Below, in pieces: positions 6,430 through 50,450 of a DNA stretch of 60,005 nt. The notes beneath the pieces are model-generated. The model was not told the origin of the DNA and did not search any database. It saw only the letters and a program-made list of their open reading frames with translations. Origin of the DNA: Candidatus Poribacteria bacterium (GTDB lineage Bacteria; Poribacteria; WGA-4E; JAJDTR01); the NCBI GenBank assembly GCA_028820655.1, contig JAPPIK010000051.1, positions 1 to 60,005 of the forward strand. The letters are read 5' to 3'. The translations under genes and the position numbers were made by a program. Positions within the stretch are counted from its first letter, which is position 1. The number at the start of each line of letters is the position of its first letter.

Positions 6430-6692
6430 ATACGTTTCAGGGGCTCAAGCGCGCTCGCTTTCACTCATTAGATTTTGCTGGATCCGATTATTTGGTCGAT
6501 CGATTGTTATACATTCGTTTGATGGCTATTATCTCTGTCGGGGCAAGAAGATCTCTATGGGATTTCTATCGCACTCGTTATTCACTCGTTTGATCCTAAC
6601 CGGTCACTTGATCACTCACTATCCGTTCGCTTGATTCCATCCTACTAGTGCGAGAAAGAAACCAAGTTTTCAGGAAAACACTCGGTTTCGGC
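6430..6692. repeat. C-type repeats and an AAACCGAG hairpin
   Basis: The intergenic stretch holds a degenerate C (6437-6470), a C with the usual order TCTATCGCACTCG-TTATTCACTCG-TTTGATC (6549-6597) and a second partial C ending CGCTTGATT (6604-6636). Beside them, at 6654-6689, is an imperfect hairpin with arms AACCAAGTTTT and AAAACACTCGGTT. The same hairpin recurs within the small mobile element at 17102-17240. Read as minus-strand RNA the central mismatch becomes G-U, so the structure may act in that orientation. Confidence 0.65.
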
Positions 6693-9345: not shown

Positions 9346-9469
9346 AGCCGTACAGAACGCACCGGGTTGATGCTCTCAACGTTTCCACTTCGCGCACGGC
9401 TTAAGAACCTGTTTGCCGAGTTTTGATAGGTCCCCTTAAACGGTGTAAGTTTCCCGGGAGGACGATACG

Positions 9470-10365: not shown

Positions 10366-10582
10366 AGAAACGATAGGATAAAACAAGAACAAACCGCATT
10401 CGTTTGAGCGGCACGAGAGCCGAGGTTTGATAGGTTGCCTTAAGAACCTGTTTGAAGAGTCGGCAGCAAAGCTATTTTTGGTTATCTGACGACAGTTTTT
10501 GAAGTTTGTGTAACTGCCTGCTGTATACCTGTCGCCCCGCTGGGGCATTGGTAGGCAAGGTCTCGGTGTTTCTACACACCTT

Positions 10583-10665
10583 CAAGATCTCTATCGCACT
10601 CGCTATCCGCTCTCTTGATCCCTCCGGGGCTTTTAGATGCTGGTGCGAAGTGCGCACCTTACAAA
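10583..10665. repeat. C element followed by intact B
   Basis: C (AGATCTCTATCGCACTCG-CTATCCGCTCTC-TTGATC) at 10583-10620 is followed by B (GATGCTGGTGCGAAGTGCGCACC) at 10637-10662. Immediately right of B begins the duplicated tail of a family M gene, so the repeats sit exactly at the point where that copy was truncated. Left of them, 10441-10455 carries TTAAGAACCTGTTTG, also found at 9400-9416 and similar to the inverted ends of the element at 17102-17240. Confidence 0.7.
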
Positions 10666-10678
10666 TTGCATTTTCAGT

Positions 10679-13709: not shown

Positions 13710-14048
13710 TTATCGGAAGTGGTATGTTAGATAAAACCAGAGTTCAATCAAGCGCAAGTGGAGTACTATGGGAATCCAGACCTGCCATAGCCGGTGTTCG
13801 ACTTTAAGGCGCAGAGGCAGGGCATCGATAGCCATATGATATTCGGCCATGTAACGGTCAAAGGCGTCGTCCCATTCCGTGCTTGGGTATTCGAGCCCTT
13901 CTGTCAGTTCGGACAACCTAACTTGAACTAGATCTCGGTGGATACGATTCTCGTATTCGTCATCAATGAAAATCATGAACGCGCTGAAACAACAGAATAG
14001 CAGGAAGCAAGCGACGGGGACGATCCACCACCAGTGCTTTTTATTCAC
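13710..14048 (-). CDS. Small membrane protein, paralogue of 16748-17086
   Basis: A 112-aa protein beginning at GTG with AGGAGGTG upstream. It starts NKKHWWWIVPVACFLLF, one membrane anchor, then a stretch of acidic helix, and ends in a second hydrophobic segment (VWIPIVLHLRLIELWFY). The paralogue at 16748 shares NKKH-WIVPVACFLLF and the DDEYE-R motif. It follows the lipoprotein gene at 14071 with 22 bases between; the junction CGATAATGGCTGTTAAAGGAGG recurs at other gene boundaries in this region. Confidence 0.7.
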   Translation of the reverse strand: MNKKHWWWIVPVACFLLFCCFSAFMIFIDDEYENRIHRDLVQVRLSELTEGLEYPSTEWDDAFDRYMAEYHMAIDALPLRLKVEHRLWQVWIPIVLHLRLIELWFYLTYHFR

Positions 14049-14070
14049 TATGCACCTCCTTTAACAGCCA

Positions 14071-14685
14071 TTATCGGACGTCTTTGGCTTCCGGCAATCT
14101 CTTGAATTCTCGGGCGGTCTCCCACCGGTCCAGATGGTAGACGATGCGACCAACGTAGTCGTCGACGGTCATGTGCAACACCCTCTCCGCAAATTCCAAA
14201 TCCTCGCGGCGTCTTTTGGTCTCTTCGGCGGTCAGTTCGCCGCCCTCTTTCTCCCGTTTCGCGAAGGCGGCGCGCGTTTCGTCCGAGTAGAACGCTTCAA
14301 CGGGGTGGCCCACGTCGTCGAATACGTCGGCAAGAGTGATGCGCAGGTTGAGCGGGTTATTGTGGGAGAGGTGTTCACGCCGCCGGACAGCCTTCCGGTA
14401 CCACGTGTTCAGGCGGTTCTCCAACGCTTTCCGGCGGGCGCGGTGTTTTTTGGCAAAGTCGTACAGTTCTTTGTTGCCGAAGGACTTAGCCTTCTTATTG
14501 CCGATTTTTACGGTATTGTCGCCTAACACGACGAAGGGGGGCGGAACGCAGTCGAGTTTGGGGACGACCTTGGAAGCGACAGCGGGTTGTTCCGCGCCTT
14601 TCTGCCGGGCACAGCCGGTTGCGAGGATTGCCACAGCGAGTATGGGTAGTCCGGCTAAAAGCCGGCGTGCGAGCGGGCTGTTCAC
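14071..14685 (-). CDS. Lipoprotein of a local paralogous family (family L)
   Basis: A 204-aa lipoprotein. The frame is open to 14829, but GTG at 14685 has GGAGG six bases upstream and is followed by NSPLARRLLAGLPILAVAIL and the lipobox ATGC, identical in plan to the gene at 17263-18156. The mature part shares a signature with the genes at 17263, 18325, 36093 and 36622: a short beta part ending in a GN(M/K) motif, L-E-x-R-L-N-x-W-Y-x-K, then R-x-x-L-x-x-N-N-P-L, VG-P-x-x-AFYSDE, and a helix ending DY(V/I). Role unknown; anchored in the envelope. Confidence 0.8.
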   Translation of the reverse strand: MNSPLARRLLAGLPILAVAILATGCARQKGAEQPAVASKVVPKLDCVPPPFVVLGDNTVKIGNKKAKSFGNKELYDFAKKHRARRKALENRLNTWYRKAVRRREHLSHNNPLNLRITLADVFDDVGHPVEAFYSDETRAAFAKREKEGGELTAEETKRRREDLEFAERVLHMTVDDYVGRIVYHLDRWETAREFKRLPEAKDVR

Positions 14686-14758
14686 GTGGGACCTCCATGA
14701 CGCCAATGTACGAGGTTGAGACCCGGGGCCGCGGTGTATCTCCGCATGGTTAAGGGTT

Positions 14759-15067
14759 TCATGGTTGTTTGGCGGCGTGTTTGCGGTTGTTTCCACTCGT
14801 GAATTTTCGGACAAGCCACCGAATTCCATAGAGAATTACGACGACGAGCAGCGTACCAAAGGGAAGATAGCCGGCATAGTAGGCTATGCCCACGGCTAAA
14901 ACCAGCGCAGGCCATTTCAACCACCATCGTCCGGCACATACGAAGATCGACAGAAATAGGATGTGCAAACTTGCGGTTATCGGGCCTACAAACGGGTTTG
15001 GGAACAGATCCACGTTAAACATGAGGTTGCCGACCGTGATCAAGGTTCCCAAGATAATTTCGATCAT
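14759..15067 (-). CDS. Small membrane protein
   Basis: A 102-aa protein with four hydrophobic segments (IILGTLITVGNLMFNV; ITASLHILFLSIFVC; WPALVLAVGIAYYAGYL; GTLLVVVILYGIRWLV) and a basic tail KFTSGNNRKHAAKQ. No good SD precedes the ATG. It lies upstream of, and on the same strand as, the lipoprotein at 14071-14685. Family unknown. Confidence 0.55.
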   Translation of the reverse strand: MIEIILGTLITVGNLMFNVDLFPNPFVGPITASLHILFLSIFVCAGRWWLKWPALVLAVGIAYYAGYLPFGTLLVVVILYGIRWLVRKFTSGNNRKHAAKQP

Positions 15068-15534: not shown

Positions 15535-15978
15535 TCATTCATCGTCATATGGAGCGAACGGAGACCCTGCTCCGTGTTTTGTATGGCTCCTTTGGGGTTT
15601 GGGGGTCGGTGGTTTTGGCGGTTCGCCGAAACGGTTCTCCGCCGGTGTGCCTCGAAAGAATGGGAGCGCTATGACGTTCCAGCCTAAGACGAAGGTGTAC
15701 CAGCCTTCCATATCCAGGTCGTGACATCGTCTGATGCAGGCCGCCATGCCTGCCCAGACCACAACCAAGTATGCGAAGATGCCCGCACCAGCCGCCAGTG
15801 CAAACAGCAAGGTGTCCACAACCACGCCAAACTTGCCCGGGAACGGAATCATCATTGTGGGGATGAACTGCAGCACAAGGATAAGCACACAGATGACGAC
15901 CCCGCGAATCCAGAAGGTTTTGCGGTTAATGCGTCCTTCGAACGATAATAAGTGATGGGAAAATAGGTTGTTGCTCAT
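15535..15978 (-). CDS. DUF805 membrane protein
   Basis: A 147-aa protein with DUF805 hallmarks: the N-terminal GRINRKTFW motif (consensus G-R-x-x-R-x-x-F/Y-W), two or three central hydrophobic helices, and RRCHDLDMEGWYTF (consensus R-R-x-H-D-x-x-x-S/G-G-W), then ENRFGEPP (consensus N-x-Y/F-G-x-x-P). The start ATG overlaps the stop of the upstream gene (ATGA), so translation is probably coupled. The C-terminus is proline-rich and polar. DUF805 proteins are inner-membrane proteins of unknown function. A second member lies at 16281. Confidence 0.9.
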   Translation of the reverse strand: MSNNLFSHHLLSFEGRINRKTFWIRGVVICVLILVLQFIPTMMIPFPGKFGVVVDTLLFALAAGAGIFAYLVVVWAGMAACIRRCHDLDMEGWYTFVLGWNVIALPFFRGTPAENRFGEPPKPPTPKPQRSHTKHGAGSPFAPYDDE

Positions 15979-16280: not shown

Positions 16281-16718
16281 TCATTCGGGGTCGCCGTATT
16301 TGTTGGGACCGGTCGCCCCTTTCCAGATGCACAGAAAAAAGATCACAAAATAGGAAAACGGGATAAGGAGGAGCGCCCACCACCCGGACAAATCTAAGTC
16401 GTGCAGCCGACGTATGACGCGGTCAACCGTAAAGCCGATCTGGAACACGACCGCCGGAACAACGATCACTAGAAAGAAGGGCAGGATCGACGCCCTTAAA
16501 TTGAACGCCCACAAAGGACCTGTCGGTATTAGGTCCGCGATGGCGCCCGCGAACTTTACAGCTTGGCCGATCATAAAAGGGATAGCGGCATTGGTCACCA
16601 GGACGTGCATGTAAAACGTAAGCCGCCCGATTCTTCCGGAGCCTATGTTACCTGTATAAAGGAAAATCCGGGAAAGCGTGTCGCTGCCGATGCCGAAATG
16701 CCGGGAAGAGGCAAACAT
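16281..16718 (-). CDS. DUF805 membrane protein, second copy
   Basis: A 145-aa protein from ATG 16718 (GGAGG lies upstream, with longer than usual spacing). It has the same hallmarks as the 15535 gene: SGRIGRLTFYMHV, helices in the middle, RRLHDLDLSGWWALLLIPF, and a terminal GPNKYGDPE. The longer frame to 16805 would run through the end of the neighbouring gene and is rejected. The gene follows 16748-17086 on the same strand through a TAA-xx-GTTAAAGGAGG junction. Confidence 0.85.
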   Translation of the reverse strand: MFASSRHFGIGSDTLSRIFLYTGNIGSGRIGRLTFYMHVLVTNAAIPFMIGQAVKFAGAIADLIPTGPLWAFNLRASILPFFLVIVVPAVVFQIGFTVDRVIRRLHDLDLSGWWALLLIPFSYFVIFFLCIWKGATGPNKYGDPE

Positions 16719-16747
16719 TATTGTAGGGGTACCTCCTTTAACAGGAT

Positions 16748-17086
16748 TTATCGGACAAAGTAGGGAATTAGAGCGTCGGGAATCAGCGTCCCCCAGAACC
16801 TCCAAACGTGCATCTCTATTTTAAGACGTGGGGGCAGGGAATCAACAAATTCCTCACGTTCGGCTACGAAACGGTTCACTGCGGCCTCAAACTCATCCGT
16901 GTTTTCCCCATTGTCGTCGGTCATGGGGATTTTCCCGCTTGTGAACTCGGAGAAGTAATCTATACCTGGCAATTGGCGGAGACGCGACTCGTATTCGTCG
17001 TCGAGGTACATGATGAAGGCGCTAACACCGCCGAAGAGAAGGAAGCAAGCCACGGGGACGATCCAGAACCGGTGCTTTTTGTTCAC
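16748..17086 (-). CDS. Small membrane protein, paralogue of 13710-14048
   Basis: A 112-aa protein starting at GTG, with AAAGGAGG upstream. The anchor IVPVACFLLFGGVSAFIMYL is followed by DDEYESRLRQLPG and an acidic helical middle. Like its paralogue it ends in an amphipathic, partly hydrophobic stretch. The SD region was separated from the upstream gene by insertion of a small mobile element (17102-17240), but the SD itself is intact. Confidence 0.7.
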   Translation of the reverse strand: MNKKHRFWIVPVACFLLFGGVSAFIMYLDDEYESRLRQLPGIDYFSEFTSGKIPMTDDNGENTDEFEAAVNRFVAEREEFVDSLPPRLKIEMHVWRFWGTLIPDALIPYFVR

Positions 17087-17101
17087 TACGCCCCTCCTTT
17101 A

Positions 17102-17240
17102 GAGCCTGTTTGAAAATTACGATTTGTAAGGCGCGCACTGCGCACCCTGCAGAATTGTGGTAGAAAGAAACCAAGTTTTGAGGAAAAAACTCGGTTTTGA
17201 GACGCATGATTCCACTCGAAATGACTTTTCAAACAGGCTC
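17102..17240. mobile_element. 139-bp MITE-like element with 15-bp inverted ends and TTA duplication
   Basis: The ends GAGCCTGTTTGAAAA (17102-17116) and TTTTCAAACAGGCTC (17226-17240) are perfect inverted repeats, and TTA flanks the element on both sides (17099-17101, 17241-17243). The insertion splits a junction (CGATAATGGxTGTTAA/AGGAGG) that is uninterrupted at two other gene boundaries nearby. Internally it carries a B-type palindrome (GCGCACTGCGCACC) and the AACCAAG/CTCGGTT hairpin also present at 6654-6689. Short GAG-starting ends with a T-N-A target are typical of IS5-family (IS1031-like) elements, so it is probably a non-autonomous derivative. No transposase is present. Confidence 0.8.
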
Positions 17241-17262
17241 TTAACACCCATTATCGGATGTC

Positions 17263-18156
17263 TCACTCGTCCTCGCCGAGGCGTTTGAATTCCTCCGTCT
17301 GCTCCTTCATGTAACGTAGGGCCTCCTTCGCAATGTGGAGTTGGACCTCAAATTCTTCGATTTCGGATTGCGACATGGTGGGCTTCTTCAATTCGAATTC
17401 CTCCTCGACCTGCTTCAATCGGTCCTCCGCGCCCCCTTGGGTCACGTCGAACAAACCGGCTAAAGCATCCGGCCATTCCGACGATTGAGGGTCGGGGGTT
17501 GTGTCGTCAATTATCTCGACGCGATCGGGCTCCCGAATAATCTCAATGCCGTCGGGTTCGCGAATTGTCTCGATGTGGTCGGGTTCCCGGGGTTCGAGGA
17601 AGTACCTAATCCTGTTTTCGAGGTAGCGAGACACGTGCGACCGGAACCGGTCGAGCGACATGCCCAAGGCTCGTTCGCCGAAGTAGAGATCATCGGCGAC
17701 GCGTTCCATGAAATCTTCGCCTCGCTCGGCGGACAGTGTTTCCGCCGAGAGGAAGGGGTTGATGGGTTGACCGATCTCGCCGCGCAAGCCGTCAATCACG
17801 ATCTCCGGGTCGGTCCCGGCGATAAGCGCCTCGACAACGCGGAGGTCGATTTTCTTGAACCAAGCGTTTACGTTAACCGCCAGGGCTTCGCGGCGTTCGC
17901 GGGTCGCGTCGAGGTAGTCGTACATGGCTTGGGTGCCGCAGCTTATCGCGCCCATATTGCCGATTGTTACGGAATCACCACTTTCATTGAACTCAACGAT
18001 ATCGTCCGTGCCCCATGAAATCGGCGGCCGGGTCTCGATGTTTGAATCGGGGGCTTGGGCGTGTCGACGGCTGGAACAGCCGGCGGCGAGGACGATGCTT
18101 ACCACAGCGAGGATAGGCAGTCCGGCTAAAAGCCGGCGCGCGAGCGGGCTATTCAC
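17263..18156 (-). CDS. Lipoprotein of family L with REPD repeats
   Basis: A 297-aa lipoprotein, GTG start, signal peptide NSPLARRLLAGLPILAVVSI and lipobox LAAGC, nearly the same as the gene at 14071. The family L domain spans residues about 60-200 (GNMGAISCG; GQPINPFLSAE; ERALGMSLDRF). It continues with three decapeptide-like repeats of REPDxIEII at about 200-230, then a C-terminal coiled-coil (LKQVEEEFELKKPTMSQSEI and beyond). The REPD repeats are tandem at DNA level and may vary in copy number. The longest member of the family here. Confidence 0.8.
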   Translation of the reverse strand: MNSPLARRLLAGLPILAVVSIVLAAGCSSRRHAQAPDSNIETRPPISWGTDDIVEFNESGDSVTIGNMGAISCGTQAMYDYLDATRERREALAVNVNAWFKKIDLRVVEALIAGTDPEIVIDGLRGEIGQPINPFLSAETLSAERGEDFMERVADDLYFGERALGMSLDRFRSHVSRYLENRIRYFLEPREPDHIETIREPDGIEIIREPDRVEIIDDTTPDPQSSEWPDALAGLFDVTQGGAEDRLKQVEEEFELKKPTMSQSEIEEFEVQLHIAKEALRYMKEQTEEFKRLGEDE

Positions 18157-47289: not shown

Positions 47290-48140
47290 TCTATTTAGGT
47301 AGGAGCGATCTCCGAATCGCGACGGTCGGGAATCGGTGGGAACTCCTCCTACCACCGGCAAAACTCACGCTCCATTTCTTGACTCTCAAGTAACACTCGA
47401 CATTGTGCTCCGCTGGAGCACGGAGATTAGACGCATCACGGTTCTATTGACATAGCACTCCGCTGGAGTGAAAACGATGCTACGAAGAAACGCTTTTCCA
47501 ATATCTGTCATAGAGCGAAAAACGAGTGTTGCTTGCTGAATGAATTATTCCGACAGGGATAATGGGGCGCTACCAAGTAACACTCGAAATTGCACTCCGC
47601 TGGAGTGCAGACGCAGGGGGGAATCGTTTTCTATTGACATCTCACTCCGCTGGAGTGAAAACCAGACCACGAAGGAACTCTTTTCCAATACCTGTCATAG
47701 CGAGAAAAACAAGTGTTGCTTGCTGAATGAATTATTCCGACAGGGATAATGGCGCGCTATCAAGTAACACTCGACATAGCACTCCGCTGGAGTGCAGACG
47801 CAGGGGGGAATCGTTTTCTATTGACATCTCACTCCGCTGGAGTGAAAACCAGACCACGAAGGAACTCTTTTCCAATACCTGTCATAGCGAGAAAAACAAG
47901 TGTTGCTTGCTGAATGAATTATTCCGACAGGGATAATGGCGTGCTATCAAGTAACACTCGACATAGCACTCCGCTGGAGTGCGGTGATTGGACGGATCGC
48001 CATCTACAGACATTGCGCAGGATTTTCTATCGCACTCACTATTCATTCGTTTGATCCTCTGGAGCGAAAAACCAGTGTTACTCGCGGAATGAATTATTCC
48101 GACAGGAATAATGGCACGCTCTTAAAAAACGCAACTTCCA
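47290..48140. repeat. 187-bp tandem array built on D palindromes
   Basis: Three copies of the unit boundary ATGAATTATTCCGACAGGGA lie at 47540, 47727 and 47914 (spacing 187 each), and a diverged fourth at 48089. Each unit carries two D hairpins (CACTCCGCTGGAGTG), then a 53-base piece whose ends GTGTTGCTTG and CAAGTAACAC are inverted and whose core is ATTATTCC-GACAG-GGATAAT. At 47301-47325 an A repeat lies in reverse orientation. A C element is inserted into the last unit (48013-48058). Identical open frames here (69 codons) are repeat by-products, not genes. Confidence 0.85.
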
Positions 48141-48772
48141 ACAGCGTAGTGTATAGTAACTGTTTAGTCCACCAGTCTGGATTTGCCAATCCAGACCGAG
48201 CGGTTGTAGGGAGTTCTGCGAAGTGGGCAATGGATTTCCGTTCTACCCAACCTACGCGGTGTGGGGTTTTCGAACTTTGGAGGGCGGAAGATTTTCTATG
48301 GGATCGCATGGGACTTCTATCGCGCTCACTAAAGATCTCTATTGGAGTTCTATCGCCTTCCCTGTTCAGTCAGTTGATCGTTCGCTATTCACTCACTTGA
48401 TCCCCTTTTGGGCTTTTAAAGGCTGGTGCGCAGGGGATTTTCTATCGCACTCGCTTTGATTGCACCCTACAAATGTATTATTCAAACAAGCTCTTAAGTT
48501 TACTATCACACTCGCTATCCACTCGCTTGAGGGATCTCTATCGCGGTCATTATCCATTCCCTTGATGGTCTGGATTTGGCAATCCAGACCGAGCGGGCCG
48601 AGAACGCGCCGCGTACGGAAGTACAATGCTAATCTTGGACAATAATTCACTTTGTGCGAATCTTCAATTCGGCGACCAATTTCTGATTTAGCAACTGTGT
48701 AGTCCACGGCTCTGGATTTGGCAATCCAGACCGAGCGGGCAGAGAACGCGCCGCGTACGGAAGCACAATGGT
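48141..48772. repeat. E palindromes with C and split-B elements
   Basis: E hairpins: 48168-48205 (GTCTGGATT-TGCC-AATCCAGAC), 48567-48588 and 48710-48733, the latter two followed by GAGCGGGC/A, GAGAACGCGCCGCGTACGGA. C pieces at 48290-48400 and 48495-48565, and the shortest C (TCTATCGCACTCGCTTTGATT) inside a B at 48416-48475. The last E lies directly at the 3' end of the hydrolase gene and may act as its transcription terminator. No gene is visible. Confidence 0.75.
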
Positions 48773-49860: not shown

Positions 49861-50450
49861 GAAGGGATCTCTATCGCGGTCATTATCCATTCCCTTGATC
49901 CCCTACCGGCGTGGTTGAACATCGAATTGATCTTATTGCATAAGCCGAGTCGGGGTTCGGAGACCCCTCCTTCCGGGGAGCGCGGCGGTGGATGAATCGC
50001 GATTCGGGTGCCGCAGTACAACCAATTCAGCCAATTCGGTGAAACAGGATGCTAACGGAGCGCGGATTTTCGCGGCGTGTTAGCATTTTCCGAAATGGAT
50101 GAATCCTTTGGTGGTGCGGGTTCGCGGGAATTTCAATGCTAACACAATGCCAACAGAAAAAAAAGTTGCGCCGCACGCCGATTGACACAATATGCCAAAA
50201 TATACCACACAATTGTTAAGTTTTCAATTCAAAAAAATGGACGTAACATGACGGATGAATTATCCCGACACGGGTATTCTATTGACATGGCCGGGATCTC
50301 TATCGCGGTCGTTATCCACTCCCTTGATCCGCTGGAGTGAAAAGCATTATTGGAAATAACACCGCCTCAATGCCTGTCATAAATCCAAAAACGAGCGTTA
50401 CTTGGAGCATGAATTATACCGCCACGGATAGTGGCGCGTTATCAAGGAAA
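49861..50450. repeat. Intergenic region with C, a GCTAAC stem-loop and D-type units
   Basis: C at 49863-49905, then a stem-loop ATGCTAAC (50049) / GTTAGCAT (50086), both arms 8 bp with an inner CGCG...CGCG pair, and another GCTAACAC at 50133. From 50220 a decayed long D unit starts (ATGACGGATGAATTATCCCG), a D split by C (50284-50342) and a second decayed unit (GTTACTTGGAGCATGAATTA to TATCAAGG). Nothing gene-like is supported in 49754-50772. Confidence 0.6.

Follow-up and report, generated by a model that had tools for sequence, protein, structure and literature searches.

IS5-type DDE transposases bind the ends of an element and insert it at a short staggered cut. According to the available text of PMC12016507, the IS5 family includes an IS1031 subgroup whose members insert preferentially at TNA, with 3-bp repeats as the result, and one of these has the ends GAACCTGTCTAG. 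Among the literature matches listed, with most subscription papers and ISfinder outside their scope, there is no earlier description of the Poribacterial elements reported here, and no Poribacteria paper on a MITE or insertion sequence, or on palindromic or intergenic repeats; the text available for PMC3909097 mentions a transposase once and refers to no insertion and no palindrome.

The window (the whole stretch of DNA analysed, 60,005 nucleotides) is part of a 5.88-Mb draft genome (G000; 61 contigs, 95% complete) of a sponge-associated bacterium of the Candidatus Poribacteria. Positions 17102-17240 very probably constitute a complete IS5-family MITE of an IS1031-like subgroup, non-coding and located between two co-directional genes. 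Although well preserved, it is an ordinary representative of a type of mobile DNA already known, of which it is a new member. The locus offers a MITE defined to the base, together with its empty site and an autonomous partner, for a candidate phylum of which most knowledge comes from environmental DNA.

Boundaries and setting of the 139-bp element

The 139-bp element (Table 1) contains no genes and lies where 176 bp separate two reading frames (17263-18156 and 16748-17086), both on the minus strand and neither with a Pfam match. An earlier note on this DNA had proposed an element with a TTA duplication at 17102-17240, and these bounds are exact to the base, with perfect 15-bp ends, TTA on both sides and an empty site. 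The empty site is a paralogous gene junction elsewhere in the window, so that the comparison with nearby gene junctions put forward in that note is real, one such junction having been found. When the flanks of the element are rejoined keeping one TTA, 81% of the bases are equal to those of this junction and the match is gap-free, and the exact element boundaries therefore stand. A paralogous junction served as the empty site because the genes flanking the window copy have no DNA match in the same-genus genome G001, which thus gives no orthologous empty site. The two paralogous gene pairs (13710-14829 and 16748-18156) encode small membrane-protein-like and lipoprotein-like products without Pfam matches, and belong to a duplicated region that also holds DUF805 genes (15535-15978 and 16281-16805).

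As a single strand, the element has a fold that beats 200 of 200 shuffled sequences, with z-scores of -7.7 as RNA and -4.3 as DNA. Strong hairpins between two genes on the same strand are what would be expected of a host regulatory element, such as a transcription terminator or an RNA processing site at a gene junction. However, a simple scan identifies no terminator-like site at the element, an Rfam scan up to E = 1 is empty, and the paralogous junction does without the element, making this explanation very unlikely; a regulatory role acquired after insertion of the MITE is possible.

Table 1. Coordinates in the window of the element, its parts and related features.
Feature	Position	Strand	Sequence or basis
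MITE-A family non-autonomous element, complete, 139 bp	17102..17240		ends and duplication, genome copies, copy alignment
Terminal inverted repeat, 15 bp	17102..17116	+	GAGCCTGTTTGAAAA; perfect
Terminal inverted repeat, 15 bp	17226..17240	-	exact reverse complement of GAGCCTGTTTGAAAA
TTA target duplication, left copy	17099..17101		single copy at empty site
TTA target duplication, right copy	17241..17243		sequence
B palindrome GGCGCGCACTGCGCACC within 139-bp element	17130..17146		motif search
C hairpin AAACCAAGTTTT..AAAACTCGGTTT within 139-bp element	17167..17198		motif search, folding
Solo C hairpin, no element ends around	6654..6689		94% over 36 bp; motif search places it at 6658-6689
Paralogous gene junction without element (empty site)	13937..14083		119/147 identical, one TTA
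Decayed MITE-B, one intact end, other end lost; P2 palindromes, D1 repeat, B palindrome	10441..10675	+	comparison with other MITE-B
Isolated end fragment TTAAGAACCTGTTTG	9401..9415	+	motif search
MITE-B right-hand fragment, ends TATTCAAACAAGCTC then TTA; start approximate	48406..48493	+	motif search
REP-like palindrome CGCGACCTGGAGATCGCTCCTACA	4985, 7755, 11642, 13393, 29020, 37255 and others		window matches

Copies, target duplications and an autonomous partner

Further copies, which the earlier note expected, are present in the genome. Allowing up to one mismatch, the 15-mer end is found at 90 sites (41 + 49) in the 5.88 Mb, and since a reversed control pattern occurs at 1 + 0, the ends are not a matter of chance; the whole element used as a DNA query has 45 matches, full-length and partial. 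Two element families are found in G000, one with nine catalogued copies of 137-139 bp (MITE-A) and the other consisting of longer relatives, mostly 160-380 bp (MITE-B), and a family of 128-130 bp (MITE-C) is present in G001. Half-copies of the ends had been placed at 9400 and 10441, and TTAAGAACCTGTTTG is exact at 9401 and 10440; the second is a longer relative missing one end and the first an end fragment only. Alignment of 12 MITE-A copies (nine from G000 and three from G001) gives pairwise identities of 76-100% with a median of 86%, the window copy being at most 94% identical to any other. Two of the G001 copies, at separate sites and with unlike duplications (TTA in one, TAA in the other), are 100% identical, which suggests that movement was recent in this genome, which has the transposase.

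Elements were catalogued where both ends lie within 80-450 bp in the fetched loci only (40 in G000, 12 in G001), and the catalogue is incomplete, with a few rows corresponding to nested elements or false pairings (e.g. L041 1389-1672). Identical 3-bp flanks are present in 29 of these 40 elements and 10 of the 12, nearly all of them TTA or TAA, with TGA, TCA and ATA also occurring; the G000 flank pairs include 14 of TTA/TTA, 14 of TAA/TAA and no TTA/TAA mixtures. Allowing for decay, the duplications of the catalogued elements are of the TNA pattern, with ATA the sole exception. The 11 G000 rows without identical flanks include L041 1389-1672, where the ends of two nested elements were wrongly paired; at this locus (L041 1389-1915, contig C28) one element lies within the D1 part of another, and each has its own duplication, TAA for the inner and TGA for the outer. 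The rejoined flanks of elements with identical flanks were also searched against all fetched loci, and further junction-spanning matches were found for L010 in L306, for L023 in L019 and L306, and for L024 in the G001 locus L331; L041 has a short junction-spanning match only, and the L014 row is a trivial self-match.

These observations bear on whether the element is instead a degenerate IS remnant, immobile since its origin, with its copies spread by segmental duplications. The location of the window in a region of duplicated genes, the divergence of its copy from the other aligned copies (identity no higher than 94%) and an assembly without a transposase relative are all consistent with such a remnant. 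However, the copies carry duplications of their own, the element is missing from the paralogous junction, and the two identical G001 copies are at separate sites with different duplications, and we give this explanation hardly any credence relative to a MITE moved by transposition.

The matching autonomous IS5-family element with these ends, sought on the suggestion of the earlier note, is present in relatives as complete copies with TNA duplications. Several G001 contigs break off within an element bearing these ends, where there is a reading frame whose end resembles that of an IS5 transposase. A 39-residue fragment of this transposase has matches in 10 of 39 genomes, with up to 15 in one of them (G018). 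Six complete autonomous copies from five genomes were examined, all with ends of the same kind and a length of 886-888 bp; five have identical duplications (TGA, TAA, TAA, TAA and TTA) and in one they differ (TAA/TTA). The 15-bp end of the window element is the same as that of the autonomous element in G001, and the ends in the other five genomes examined show 0-2 differences. The transposase protein contains Pfam DUF4096 and DDE_Tnp_1, and scores 230.5 and 188 bits against the NCBIfam IS5 family model (IS5_3; cut-off 110). A scan of named genomes produced 80 loci, the closest of which are all Candidatus Poribacteria (76-100% identity in full or nearly full matches), with the remaining loci distant and from many phyla.

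Judged by the features of its ends, duplication and size, the putative partner is a close match to the IS1031 subgroup of the IS5 family, and both the TNA duplications (TAA, TTA and TGA) and the GAG/GAA ends of that subgroup are present in the autonomous copies. The window copy for its part has the features of a MITE, being short and without a transposase gene, sharing its ends and its kind of duplication with the autonomous element, and having an empty site. At its 17226-17240 end, 22 bases (15 + 7) are also found at the right end of the autonomous G001 element, and at the other end only the 15-bp repeat is common to both; because the two thus have only 7 bp in common beyond the 15-bp ends, and at one end, the interior does not derive from a transposase gene by deletion. 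Three G001 loci (L100, L106 and L142) have autonomous IS5 copies apparently within a 128-bp MITE-C at a TGA site, with one junction each. A 2.1-kb pair of ends in G001 contig C135 was considered as an autonomous element and rejected, as it encloses ordinary reading frames with no transposase seen.

The earlier note proposed looking for the autonomous element in the genome, and in the window's own genome it was not found: the assembly has no transposase relative detectable with the 39-residue fragment, with the full protein (E up to 1) or with PF13586, the fragment search having found its target in G001 and the full-protein search having no positive control of its own. Three transposase-like genes matching PF01609 were rejected as helpers, none being flanked by a pair of these ends. 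A multi-copy helper in G000 should have been evident, since in G001 it appears as contig ends in spite of its broken interior. With no transposase relative detectable in their own assembly, the G000 copies look stranded without a helper. An IS5-type DDE transposase would presumably recognise the 15-bp ends, cut out or copy the element, and join it to a staggered cut at TNA, such that a 3-bp repeat results. The helper would have acted in trans on these ends, and may later have been lost from the lineage or lie in the missing few percent of the assembly, where a single copy is possible.

Internal palindromes, D1 and the longer relatives

The element contains a B palindrome and a second hairpin (C), and the C hairpin is also present on its own in the window, all three as described in the earlier note. 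That note had further linked the palindromic repeats to transposition, which holds insofar as the element carries both, but most copies of both lie outside elements and the C hairpin is alone in relatives too, at many places in genomes of family f4. In 460 kb of G000 (the window plus 20 stretches), and with an element end defined laxly, no element end lies near 14 of the 15 B palindromes or near 7 of the 8 C hairpins, and reversed-sequence controls yield 0. The link is at most one-way: the element carries the repeats and does not explain their spread. Because they are far commoner on their own, the palindromes inside the element were probably captured as passengers between a pair of element ends, and the simplest reading is that the elements contain pre-existing repeats. 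The locus is an example of how transposon ends can come to enclose short palindromic repeats.

An element that folds as a whole into a strong cruciform-like structure and holds two palindromes widespread in intergenic regions could also be read as a palindromic repeat of REP/REPIN type that a RAYT (Y1 tyrosine) transposase has spread, the IS-like ends being coincidental. The perfect long terminal repeats argue against this, as do the 3-bp TNA duplication with its empty site and an IS5 element whose ends are of the same kind; target duplications of this sort are not a known feature of REP-type repeats. A REP/REPIN origin is thus extremely improbable, and an IS5-family MITE is the reading we retain. 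The REP-like palindrome CGCGACCTGGAGATCGCTCCTACA itself has 28 copies in the 460 kb and 17 matches in the window. A 187-bp unit has three tandem copies at 47442-48002, 83-91% alike, and a fourth stretch, at 50328, is related to them.

D1 is a 35-bp repeat (GATCTCTATCGCACTCGYTATYCACTCGCTTGATC) with GATC at each end. Counted as a core pattern with at most 3 mismatches, it has 390 copies in G000, 299 in G001, 58 in G004, 9 in G014, 1 in G010 and 0 in the other 34 of 39 genomes, with 0 in controls. It is found at about 24-32 places in the window (e.g. 4863, 7819, 11511, 21779, 28991, 40288 and 48026), and is sometimes in tandem and sometimes inside REP or B palindromes, several window copies being located between the arms of one. 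A general preference for hairpin loops is nonetheless unsupported. When pairing between the two flanks of D1 was compared with flanks dealt at random (two of 74 G000 copies being dropped for N or short flanks), stems of at least 5 did not significantly exceed random in either genome, numbering 8 of 72 in G000 (p 0.15, against a shuffled mean of 5.3) and 4 of 27 in G001 (p 0.46); for mean stem length, p is 0.012 in G000 and 0.50 in G001.

Within MITE-B elements D1 occupies fixed slots, and some MITE-B hold D1 arrays. Slot 1 is filled in 11 of 22 scored places in G000 (25 found), 0 of 9 in G001 and 0 of 7 in other Poribacteria, and slot 2 in 10 of 16 scored, 1 of 9 and 0 of 6 scored, respectively, although these loci were fetched by element similarity, some with an empty query, such that the counts are not genome frequencies. 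The junctions of filled slots are nearly constant, and the filled slots may therefore descend from one insertion each, not many. We can suggest only tentatively, as a rather doubtful reading, that in these sponge Poribacteria non-autonomous IS5 ends repeatedly enclosed ready-made hairpin repeats and that D1 entered the composites as an independent tiny mobile unit; if so, MITEs would be carriers multiplying otherwise immobile palindromic repeats. The origin of composite MITEs becomes testable by copy comparison, and it is the longer composite elements, together with D1, that merit specialist attention.

Comparison with known elements

Very short dispersed repeats, seemingly inserted in other repeats by a mechanism that is not known, were reportedly described in cyanobacteria by Elhai in 2008, and D1 resembles this description in being very short and located within other repeats. 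As far as the available text of PMC4596501 describes it, the BrickBuilt MITE of Porphyromonas gingivalis holds short tandem repeats and is comparable to MITE-B with D1 arrays, although its unit is 23 nt rather than the 35 bp of D1, which is unlike the BrickBuilt unit in being common outside elements as well and in occupying fixed slots next to or inside palindromes. The window element resembles the IS-derived bacterial MITEs in the available portions of the review PMC10969869 and of PMC6382973 (MITEAba12), as these are short, non-coding and multi-copy, with ends shared with an IS and a target duplication, and it differs from them in its Poribacterial host and in that no transposase was detected in the same assembly. 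The Poribacterial partner is similar to ISLrh (IS5 family, IS1031 subgroup), which, in the part of PMC12016507 that was available, has ends starting GA(A/G)CCTGT, an exclusive 3-bp TNA duplication and an IS5-type transposase; its length of 857 bp is likewise comparable to the 886-888 bp of the partner. ISLrh has two reading frames with a frameshift, whereas intact copies of the Poribacterial partner have one.
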